A stretch of DNA of 55,002 nucleotides, taken from contig JAEUJY010000094.1 in the NCBI GenBank assembly GCA_016794525.1, positions 1 through 55,002 of the forward strand. Reading direction: 5' to 3'. A program made the translations under genes and the position numbers. The notes under the pieces are model-generated. The model had not been told where the DNA came from. It searched no databases and was given only the letters and a program-made list of their open reading frames with translations. This document shows positions 16,261 through 40,345 of this stretch, in pieces. This DNA comes from Myxococcales bacterium (GTDB taxonomy: Bacteria; Myxococcota_A; Polyangia; Haliangiales; Haliangiaceae). Position 1 is the first letter of the stretch. Each line of letters starts with the position of its first letter.

Positions 16261-17211
16261 ATGAGCGATCCATCGATCCCGGTCGTCGACGTACGCGACT
16301 GGTTTGGCGACGCCGCCGCCCGCGCCCGCTTCGTGCGCGGCGTCGGCGAGTCGCTGGCGGACATCGGCTTCTTCGCGCTGGCCAACCACGGCATCTCGCC
16401 CGAGGACACCCAGCGCGCCTACGCCACCGCCCGCGAGTTCTTCGCGCTGCCGCCCGCCACGAAGGCCGCGTACCACCGCGCCGGCGCCAAGGGCCAGCGC
16501 GGCTACACCGGCTTCGGCACCGAGCACGCCAAGGACGCCCAGGCCGCCGACCTCAAGGAGTTCTGGCAGGTCGGCCGGGTCGACGTCCCCGACGCGCACG
16601 AGGTCCACCAGCCGTTCGGCCCCAACCTGTGGCCCGACGCCGACGTGCCGGCGTTCCGGCCGGTCATGTCCGAGCTGTACCGCGGCCTCGATCGCCTCGG
16701 CGCGATCTGCCTCGAGGCCGCCGCGCTGTACCTGGGCGAGCCCGCCGACACGTTCGCGGCGATGGCCACCGACAGCGACACGATCGTCCGCGTGATCTAC
16801 TACCCGCCGACCGTCGGCGCGCCGCCCGGCGCGGTGCGGTCGGCCGCCCACGAGGACATCAACCTGATCACGCTCCTGTCGGGGGCCACCGCCGACGGCC
16901 TCGAGCTGCTGCGGCGCGACGGCACCTGGATGCCGGTCCACGTGTCGTTCGATCACATCGTCGTCGACTCCGGCGACATGCTGCAGAACCTCACCAACGG
17001 CCTGTACAAGTCGACCACCCACCGCGTCGTCAACCCCGCCGACGCGTCGAGCGATCGCTACTCGATGCCGTGCTTCATCCACCCGCGCAAGTCGGTCGAC
17101 CTCACGCCGATGGCGTCGGCGGTGGCCCGCACCGGCGGCGTCGCGCGCTACCCCAGCCTCGACGCCGGCAGCTACCTCATCCAGCGCCTCAAGGAGATCG
17201 GGCTGGGGTGA
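16261..17211 (+). CDS. Isopenicillin N synthase-like 2OG-Fe(II) oxygenase
   Basis: 316 residues, double-stranded beta-helix oxygenase. The N-terminal DIOX_N part is PVVDVRDW with FFALANHGIS. The iron ligands are the HED in AAHEDINLITLL (about residues 197-208) and the His of STTHRVVNP (about 255); the 2-oxoglutarate-binding Arg is in RYSMPCFIHP. Residues for IPNS itself cannot be told apart from those of other 2OG oxygenases, so the substrate is open. A TATCTC hexamer 7 bases before the ATG resembles the local leaderless pattern. The stop is followed by the triple palindromic repeat. Confidence 0.9.
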   Translation: MSDPSIPVVDVRDWFGDAAARARFVRGVGESLADIGFFALANHGISPEDTQRAYATAREFFALPPATKAAYHRAGAKGQRGYTGFGTEHAKDAQAADLKEFWQVGRVDVPDAHEVHQPFGPNLWPDADVPAFRPVMSELYRGLDRLGAICLEAAALYLGEPADTFAAMATDSDTIVRVIYYPPTVGAPPGAVRSAAHEDINLITLLSGATADGLELLRRDGTWMPVHVSFDHIVVDSGDMLQNLTNGLYKSTTHRVVNPADASSDRYSMPCFIHPRKSVDLTPMASAVARTGGVARYPSLDAGSYLIQRLKEIGLG

Positions 17212-17216
17212 CCGAA

Positions 17217-17445
17217 CTCCTCGGAAGGGGCTTTCGCGAAGCCCCTTCCCCGTCGGGGGCATGCCCCGACGGGGCCCCAACCCCCGAGTTCCTTGGAAGG
17301 GGCTTTCGCAAAGCCCCTTCCCCGTCGGGGGCATGCCCCGACGGGGCCCCAACCCACGAGTTCCTTGGAAGGGGCTTTCGCAAAGCCCCTTCCCCGTCGG
17401 GGGCATGCCCCGACGGGGCCCCAACCCGAAACGCGAGAGCCCTCA
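17217..17445 (+). repeat. Gene-end palindromic element, copy C: three tandem 72-bp units
   Basis: The 314-base stretch 17212-17525 has no gene and is filled mostly by this element. Units begin at 17223, 17295 and 17367, exactly 72 bases apart and nearly identical. Each unit holds two palindromes: a GGAAGGGGCTTT hairpin with loop CGC, and a second hairpin around GGGGGCATGCCCC. After the third unit comes CCCGAAACGCGAGAG, also present in copy A. The near identity implies recent tandem amplification. Confidence 0.85.
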
Positions 17446-22575: not shown

Positions 22576-22979
22576 TCCCACGTGGGACCGTCGTCAGCTC
22601 CGCGCCATCTCCCATGTGGGACGCACCCGCCACCTCCCACGTGGGACGCCGCGCCATCTCCCACGTGGGACGCCGCGCCAGCTCCCACGTGGGACGCCCG
22701 CCGCGATCTCCCACGTGGGATGCCCCGCCATGTCCAAGCCGCAGCGCCATCTTCCACGTGGGCGCCCGCGCGCGGCCGCGCCTTCTCCCACGTGGGACGC
22801 CCGCCGCGATCTCCCGCGTGGGACGCGCAGCGCCATCTTCCACGTGGGCCCTCGCGCCGCGGCCGCGGCTTCTCCCACGTGGGACGCCCGCCGCGATCTC
22901 CCACGTGGAACGCCGCGCGGTGGCCGCGCCAGCTCCCAGGCGAAACGCGCGCGGTGGCCGCGCCAGCTCCCACGTGGGA
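22576..22979. repeat. Array of TCCCACGTGGGA palindromes (13 copies plus a degenerate one)
   Basis: The 608-base gap 22508-23115 contains no convincing gene and is dominated by this array. Copies of the 12-base palindrome start at 22576, 22610, 22635, 22659, 22683, 22709, 22752, 22786, 22812, 22838, 22873, 22899, 22934 (degenerate) and 22968. Eight copies are perfect; others differ by one to three bases, some symmetrically. Spacing is about 24-26, 34-35 or 43 bases, so the longer spacers carry extra blocks of 8-9 bases (often GCGGCCGCG-like). All six frames stay largely open through it, giving artefactual repeats such as HVGR or PTWE. From 22990 to 23115 only GC-rich sequence is seen. Confidence 0.85.
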
Positions 22980-23115: not shown

Positions 23116-23988
23116 TCAGTCGTCGAACGGCGAGATCATCACGGCTTCCTTCTTGCCCTTCGCGATGATCGCCTTGTCGTAGTACTCGGCGGCCGGGATG
23201 CCGCTCTCGTTGGCGGCCTTGATCTCGGCGTCGACCAGCTTCTTGAACGAGTCGAGATCGCCGGCCTGGGCCGGCTTGCCGTTGACGAAGAACGACGGCG
23301 TGCCGCCGACGCCGAACTTCTGCAGCGTGCGGCCGCTCTGCTGCAGCCAGGTCTGGCACTCGGGGCCGTTCATGTCGGCCTTGAACTGCTCGACGTTGAG
23401 GCCGATCGTGCCGGCCATCGCCTCGACCGCCTCGGCGGTGGCCTTCTCACGATTCGCGTTGCCCGGCCCCTGCGGCCAGATCCCGCTCCACAGCGCCGAC
23501 TGCATCTCGTGGGCCTTGCCCTGCTTGCCGGCGGCGCACATCGCCAGCCCCGACGGCATCGCCGGCGGGCCGTGGATGACCATGTACTTCGGCACGATGC
23601 GCACGTCGTTGGGGTACGCCGCGAGCAGCTGCTCCATGGTCGGCGCGATCATCGAGCAGTACGGGCACAGGAACTCGTAGGCCTCGACGATCGTGACCTT
23701 GGCGTCCTTGGCGCCGATGACCGGATCGTTGGGCTCGATCGGCACGGCGTAGGTCTGGGTCTTGTCGAGCTCGGGCGGCACGGCCTGCTTGAGGAAGCCG
23801 GCGATCTTGTCGAGCTTCTTCTCGAGCCGCGCCAGGCGCGCCTCGACGTCGCCGCTGGCCGGCGCGCCCATCGACGCGCCCGGACCGCGGTCGCGCTCGG
23901 CGCCCTTGCTCCACGACGGATCCTTCTTGTCTTGCTGGCAGCCGACGACCAGCGTCGCGGCGGTGATCGAGAGGAGAAGCTTGCGCAT
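23116..23988 (-). CDS. DsbA-family thiol-disulfide oxidoreductase lipoprotein
   Basis: 290 residues. Signal MRKLLLSITAATLVVGC with a VVGC lipobox (Cys17), a charged linker, a short coiled coil (about 47-68, VEARLARLEKKLDKIAGFL), then a DsbA-like thioredoxin fold. The redox motif is FLCPYCSM with Cys108 and Cys111, and the cis-Pro loop is GVGGTPSFFVNGK. Two more Cys lie in the helical insert (AMCAAG, ECQTW). It should act on thiols outside the inner membrane, as oxidase or isomerase. Start 23988 is chosen by TAGTAT 7 bases upstream. It is divergent from the CxVHGC-repeat gene, a very Cys-rich exported protein and plausible client (inference). Confidence 0.9.
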   Translation of the reverse strand: MRKLLLSITAATLVVGCQQDKKDPSWSKGAERDRGPGASMGAPASGDVEARLARLEKKLDKIAGFLKQAVPPELDKTQTYAVPIEPNDPVIGAKDAKVTIVEAYEFLCPYCSMIAPTMEQLLAAYPNDVRIVPKYMVIHGPPAMPSGLAMCAAGKQGKAHEMQSALWSGIWPQGPGNANREKATAEAVEAMAGTIGLNVEQFKADMNGPECQTWLQQSGRTLQKFGVGGTPSFFVNGKPAQAGDLDSFKKLVDAEIKAANESGIPAAEYYDKAIIAKGKKEAVMISPFDD

Positions 23989-23995
23989 GGCGGGC

Positions 23996-24023
23996 ATACT
24001 ACACATGTCGTTTCGGTTGTCGA
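23996..24023 (-). promoter_or_regulatory. Promoter of the DsbA-like gene, TCGACA-N16-TAGTAT
   Basis: On the minus strand TCGACA (24018-24023) and TAGTAT (23996-24001) are 16 bases apart; the -10 box ends 7 bases before the ATG, giving a leaderless transcript. This is the best-formed promoter in the window. Confidence 0.6.
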
Positions 24024-24117: not shown

Positions 24118-24648
24118 ATGCGCTCCGTCGTCGTCGTCCTCGCGCTCTGCGCCGCGCTCGTCGGCCTCGCCGCCGCTCGCCCCGACGTGCCGTTGCCGCG
24201 GGCGTTGAAGGACGTGCGGTTCCACGACGGCCAGGCCTGCTGGAAGGTCACCGGCGCCGCCGGCTGCAACGTCCACGGCTGCTGGAAGAACGGCGGCGGC
24301 TGCAACGTCCACGGCTGCTGGAACGGCCCCAACGGCAGCTGCACGGTCCACGGCTGCACCGACAACGGCACCTGCACCGTCGACGGCTGCCCGCGCGGCC
24401 GGGTGCGCGCCCGCACCGTCTGCGTGCCCGAGGACGAGCTGCCCGACGTCCTCGGCTACGATCCCGACGGCGCCGGCGGCTGCAACGCCCACGGCTGCTG
24501 GGACGCCGGCGGCGGCTGCAACGTCCACGGCTGCTGGTCGCACCTCGGCGGCTGCAACGTCCACGGCTGCTGGAACAGCCCGATGGGCGCGTGCAACGTC
24601 CACGGCTGCTCCGACCGCGGCGTGTGCAGCGTCCACGGCTGTCCGTGA
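24118..24648 (+). CDS. Exported protein with nine CxVHGC repeats
   Basis: 176 residues, not a family I recognise. The signal peptide MRSVVVVLALCAALVGLAAA is followed by a short region and then nine Cys-x-Val-His-Gly-Cys motifs with first Cys at residues 50, 62, 75, 86 and 122, 134, 146, 159, 170. The consensus is GGCNVHGCW; repeat 4 has Asp for His and repeat 5 Ala for Val. Spacing is 12-13-11 in block A and 12-12-13-11 in block B, and the flanks match (W-NGPNG/W-NSPMG, then TDNG/SDRG, ending CP), so the protein is an internal duplication. Twenty Cys remain after the signal peptide. Possible roles: metal binding through Cys/His, a disulfide-ladder surface protein, or a precursor of a modified peptide; none is shown. 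It is divergent from the DsbA-like gene. Confidence 0.85.
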   Translation: MRSVVVVLALCAALVGLAAARPDVPLPRALKDVRFHDGQACWKVTGAAGCNVHGCWKNGGGCNVHGCWNGPNGSCTVHGCTDNGTCTVDGCPRGRVRARTVCVPEDELPDVLGYDPDGAGGCNAHGCWDAGGGCNVHGCWSHLGGCNVHGCWNSPMGACNVHGCSDRGVCSVHGCP

Positions 24649-40069: not shown

Positions 40070-40345
40070 AAACCACCAACGCCCCGCATCCAGCAGGGCG
40101 TCCGCTCCCTCCCCTCACCCGCGCCGCCCCGAAACCACCAACGCATCCAGCAGGGCGTCCGCGCCTCCCCTCACCCGCGCTGGACCCGCGCCGCTCCGAA
40201 ACCACCAACGCCCCGCATCCAGCGGGGCGTCGGCTCCCGCTCCTCACCCGCGCTGGACCCGCGCCGCTCCGAAACCACCAACGCCCCGCATCCAGCGGGG
40301 CGTCGGCTCCCTTCCCTCACCCGCGCTGAACGCTCCGGGCCGTTT
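40070..40345. repeat. Four tandem 62-73-bp hairpin repeats
   Basis: The 39996-40463 stretch has no gene. Units begin with AAACCACCAACG at 40070, 40132, 40199 and 40272. Units 3 and 4 contain a perfect 9-bp hairpin ACGCCCCGC-ATCCA-GCGGGGCGT; unit 1 has one C-A mismatch and unit 2 a 4-base-shortened arm. Each is followed by a Pro-codon-like CTCACCCGCGC tract. The last part blends into gene-end element D. Confidence 0.75.

Follow-up and report, generated by a model that had tools for sequence, protein, structure and literature searches.

Here we describe a gene in the window (the whole 55,002-nucleotide stretch of Myxococcales DNA that was analysed) whose product, judged from its translation and its homologues, is a genuine exported protein of nine short cysteine-pair repeats. 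In our searches the family to which it belongs is small, confined to a few Myxococcota and apparently undescribed. The explanation that we prefer, and that as a whole we hold at even confidence, is a disulfide-bonded surface or periplasmic repeat protein displaying a row of aromatic residues; disulfide bonding as such is likely.

Organization of the repeat protein

The open reading frame and its parts are the following, all on the forward strand.

24118-24648, +, whole open reading frame, predicted exported CxxxGC repeat protein of 176 residues (from translation and homologues)
24118-24177, +, apparent Sec signal peptide MRSVVVVLALCAALVGLAAA, residues 1-20, boundary AAA/RP, assigned by eye; the N-termini of the homologues are also hydrophobic
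24178-24264, +, N-terminal non-repeat segment of 29 residues with one Cys (ACWKV); relatives were sought elsewhere and only the same-genus homologue G006 has one
24265-24282, +, repeat 1, CNVHGC, block A
24301-24318, +, repeat 2, CNVHGC, block A
24340-24357, +, repeat 3, CTVHGC, block A
24373-24390, +, repeat 4, CTVDGC, block A, followed by the Pro that ends the array
24391-24480, +, linker RTVCVPEDELPDVLGYDP between the blocks, with one Cys, the putative partner of the N-terminal Cys
24481-24498, +, repeat 5, CNAHGC, block B
24517-24534, +, repeat 6, CNVHGC, block B
24553-24570, +, repeat 7, CNVHGC, block B
24592-24609, +, repeat 8, CNVHGC, block B
24625-24642, +, repeat 9, CSVHGC, block B, followed by the terminal Pro and the stop codon

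An earlier sequence-only reading of this DNA had described a signal peptide and nine motifs, one of them with Asp for His, and its counts and spacings proved exact on retranslation. In block A the motifs follow one another at steps of 12-13-11 residues and in block B at 12-12-13-11, the step from one block to the next being 36; together they hold 18 Cys and 8 His. Shuffling the residues of the protein 20,000 times gave a mean of 0.43 and a maximum of 4 CxxxGC motifs, against nine in the real protein. The GC content of the reading frame by codon position is 0.66/0.59/0.98, the third position being like that of the neighbouring genes, and the gene is present in a single copy in the window genome (G000). 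The internal duplication that had been pointed out was confirmed as well: aligned with the final four units of block B, block A matches at 32 of 44 amino acids, and the two blocks of G006 share 40/44.

Distribution of the family

The best homologue, in the same-genus genome G006, is 66% identical (E 3.8e-67) in a protein search of 56 relatives, in which the f6 proteins also matched. The reading frame is retained in G006 and the repeats are retained in six further genomes. An HMM search with the repeat, which had been suggested as a check, was run over 318 genomes of the class together with DNA patterns, and it yielded eight clear members, the window genome included: G000, G006, G387, G044, G471, G052, G477 and G553. 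In a 379-genome sample of the phylum the array HMM added marginal matches only. Weak HMM matches were discarded: the loci inspected had no CxxxGC array, that of G519 is a Prok-RING protein, and G347 and G134 are marginal.

Wider collections were also covered. A DNA pattern of two 12-spaced CN..GC units gave five matches in 84,980 species; it demands Asn in both units, and relatives without Asn could escape it. Three of the matches are Myxococcales MAGs, whose records are identical to those of G471, G044 and G052, and the other two (L013 and L014) are unrelated Asn/Cys/Gly-rich reading frames. The same collection searched with the window protein gave no match, perhaps owing to low-complexity filtering. 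A tblastn search of plasmids returned chance matches only (E about 10), and one of phages returned no match.

The array occurs in more than one setting. In G553 it is fused to EGF-type Cys repeats behind a lipoprotein-like start. The f6 repeat proteins (L049, L050, L051 and L052) carry an additional six-Cys N-terminal domain, which is exclusive to these four among the 57 genomes searched.

The best Pfam-A match of the window protein, with an E-value of 0.21, scored 12.6 bits where the cut-off is 25; NCBIfam (release 20.0, up to E 1) and PHROGs gave no match, and the PDB sequences, antifreeze chains included, gave none worth keeping. These searches support the earlier view of a secreted protein from an undescribed repeat family. 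In broad terms the family is of one type with the Cys-rich repeats (TIGR04201) of myxobacterial TraA, which are likewise tandem repeats in a secreted protein, are thought to be oxidised and have been proposed to give a surface receptor its rigid stalk (PMC3325183). The repeat itself is a different one, however, and the window protein matched neither a PA14 domain nor MYXO-CTERM, nor, provided that NCBIfam release 20.0 includes the model, TIGR04201.

Repeat code and evolution

The eight proteins comprise 56 units, and the hexapeptide has Cys1, Gly5 and Cys6 in every one of them (56/56). Position 2 is N in 45 units, S in 6 and T in 5. Position 4 is H in 23, W in 22, Y in 8, F in 2 and D in 1, and is thus aromatic or His in 55/56, the sole exception being the window unit CTVDGC. 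The motif CxVHGC, as first proposed, holds in the window but is too narrow for the family, for which the wider form is C-[NST]-x-[HWYF]-G-C. Apart from CTVDGC, the window protein has the units, the 11-, 12- and 13-residue steps and the GCP end that define the family. The 12-residue steps mostly read W..GG, the 13-residue steps W..P.G with one exception and the 11-residue steps [STR][DNE].G, and GCP closes every array.

Arrays contain 4, 5, 6, 7 or 8 units, odd numbers being found in block B of the window protein (5) and in G387 (7), and the number of Cys is even in 8/8 predicted mature proteins. Within a protein, positions 3 and 4 are mostly uniform: they read VH in G000 and G006, IH or VH in G387, QW in G044, G052 and G471, and AY in G553; G477 has the only mixed array (QY, YF, EY, YF).

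Between units of the same protein pS is 0.40-0.74 and pN 0.00-0.06 in G044, G052, G471, G553 and G387, and for the hexapeptide of G044 the values are 0.63 and 0.04. Since synonymous sites differ while pN stays at this level, the uniformity of the units is not merely a matter of recent copying. Core residues are fixed although the flanking codons have diverged, which argues that the aromatic residue at position 4 is kept by selection. Among the f6 homologues dN/dS is 0.12-0.24. Some homogenisation is indicated too, because the blocks of G006 are closer to each other than to their G000 counterparts, with which they share 37/44 and 35/44; when G000 is compared with G006, the blocks have a pS of 0.16-0.21, while the N-terminal segment and linker have 0.45-0.59.

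Proposed structure and function

In the explanation that we prefer, the two Cys of each unit would oxidise after Sec export to an intra-unit CxxxxC disulfide. Each unit would then fold alone, and arrays could gain or lose one unit; arrays with odd numbers of units fit self-contained units better than units obliged to pair. The strict code of units and linkers and the even Cys numbers of the predicted mature proteins also speak for this explanation. The EGF-type repeats and lipoprotein-like start of the G553 protein point to an extracytoplasmic setting of the disulfide type. The units may stack as short strands, perhaps as a narrow two-sided beta-roll with the disulfides inside, and this would place an aromatic row along one edge (His here, Trp or Tyr elsewhere), with Trp on most linkers. 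The row would be the likely working surface, serving either to bind a ligand with repeating units, for example a glycan, or to pack in the envelope. One further disulfide, between the N-terminal Cys and the linker Cys, probably connects the blocks. Counting against this explanation, dN/dS of the same-genus pair G000/G006 is only 0.65, and gene neighbourhoods differ even between these two species.

Structure prediction, likewise suggested beforehand as a check, placed strands but did so at low confidence. The pLDDT of AlphaFold2 was 52.3 for block B (8-row alignment) and 41.8 for the mature protein, with no pTM above 0.34; the alignments drew on the window and the loci found by DNA search, and hence did not contain G006, G387, G477 and G553. 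In both low-confidence models a short strand recurs roughly every six residues where units are 12-spaced, giving two per 12 residues. Foldseek with the weak model matched just two chains, both from the head of BadA of Bartonella (E 4.9 and 9.8) and neither usable, and a second structure comparison found no solved fold at Z 2 or more. Given the low confidence and the lack of a matching solved fold, we treat the beta-roll as a hint only.

A more far-reaching version, which we offer as speculative and rather doubtful, is a new small fold: a beta-roll with a core of stacked intra-repeat disulfides and an edge row of one aromatic residue, with which the protein would recognise a ligand of repeating units as by a ladder that can be tuned. 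It draws on the residue pair at positions 3 and 4 (VH, QW, AY) being set protein-wide and swapped as a block between lineages.

With this family the envelope proteins of the Myxococcota gain a Cys-repeat module that has apparently not been described before. Its unit code is strict and residues are swapped across whole arrays, which makes it a clean natural case of arrays that keep one surface residue uniform. Should the fold prove to be a disulfide-cored solenoid, the module would also offer a compact and stable scaffold whose face can be programmed.

Alternative explanations

Three functions had been proposed from the sequence alone. The disulfide ladder fits best, His-based metal binding is weakened and peptide modification is without support from gene context.

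A secreted Cys-cluster metalloprotein, in which the Cys pairs of neighbouring units would store or sequester Zn, Cu or another soft metal by binding it, assisted by His in this lineage, is possible but unlikely. The many Cys and His of the window motifs speak for it, as does a resemblance of the array to the CW..NGGC..aGC end of the Prok-RING_1 zinc finger (PF14446), which has identical spacing in the G519 protein (CWQENGGCGIYGC). This likeness is local, a string CW..xGGC..[aromatic]GC of 13 residues; the repeat protein has neither the initial CxxC nor the H ligand and is predicted to be exported, whereas the Prok-RING_1 protein is apparently cytoplasmic. PF14446 has no match in the window protein, where of the full ligand set CxxC..CxxC..HxxC..C4C the last string alone is similar, and the only zinc-finger families of Pfam to match did so at E 0.21 and 3.1, short of significance. 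The His position is occupied by Trp throughout the arrays of three homologues, by Tyr in one and by Tyr or Phe in another, and with position 4 varying among H, W, Y and F, coordination of a metal by His is unlikely as the common function. In addition, odd arrays would leave one unit unpaired, Cys of exported proteins are normally oxidised, and no metal transport gene was recognised adjoining any copy. As separate observations, the Prok-RING_1 protein with CWQENGGCGIYGC lies at L067 51-632, for which convergence or origin is possible and derivation of the repeats from a zinc finger is a lead rather than a claim, and the window genome has two Prok-RING_1 matches at G000:C105:2517-3234 (E 4.0e-10 and 1.8e-5), the only ones among 36 genomes searched.

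Modification by an enzyme of the MNIO type (multinuclear non-haem iron oxidase), as in bufferins or 'CxxxxC' precursors, whose Cys are converted to copper-binding heterocycles, is improbable. Published precursors (bufferins, Buf_EGKCG/oxazolin and the CxxxxC cluster) are likewise Sec-exported with repeated Cys motifs of the CxxxxC kind, the EGKCG repeat type having been modelled as a beta-helix (PMC12452194), and MNIO genes were found in 7/8 of the repeat-protein genomes. However, published precursor genes precede the MNIO gene, whereas the repeat gene has none adjoining it: every MNIO match (PF05114) lies off its contig. The window genome has one distant match (E 4.9e-20), on another contig, and G553, which is 96% complete, has the repeat protein and zero MNIO matches. 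No other modification enzyme was recognised in the scanned neighbours, bar a methyltransferase-domain gene beside the g22 copies.

A precursor that releases small, secreted Cys-loop peptides by proteolysis, whether signals or antimicrobials, would suit the modular repeats, the Pro closing the arrays and the patchy distribution, but we rate it as very improbable, there being no conserved dibasic or other cleavage site between units and no adjoining export, protease or immunity gene recognised among the neighbours scanned. Least credible is a solenoid binding ice or another inorganic surface like the Tenebrio-type beetle antifreeze protein (TCTxSxNCxxAx, with C2-C8 disulfides in the core; PMC8038014), which shares the 12-residue repeat length, one Cys pair per repeat and a variable copy number, but whose TxT face is absent here (units read GCN or GCW, with Thr next to Cys only in CTV units), whose Cys are 6 rather than 5 apart and whose sequences in the PDB gave no match, while the mixed 11- and 13-residue steps would disrupt a flat regular face.

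Gene neighbourhood

In the window the gene is accompanied by a candidate DsbA-like lipoprotein (23116-24006, other strand), a DUF3108 protein and a sulfatase-family protein. The DsbA-like neighbour was considered as a functional partner and rejected: the adjacency is missing in the same-genus homologue, and proximity to an unconserved neighbour is no evidence. A comparison of called genes found no neighbours common to the window and G006, where the gene upstream is a DUF4185 gene. The three g22 genomes share their neighbours, and the G044 copy is preceded by a 760-residue methyltransferase-domain protein. Neighbourhoods are thus not conserved, and the repeat protein looks self-sufficient.

Three repeat arrays were observed elsewhere in the window. 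The palindrome TCCCACGTGGGA occurs in 11 copies (with at most 1 mismatch, against 0.14 expected) at 22576-22979; this array is flanked by a gene around 22103 and by the DsbA-like gene. Positions 17218-17427, just after the gene at 16261-17211, hold three near-identical 72-bp units with nested inverted repeats, and a 73-bp unit is present in three copies at 40117-40328.
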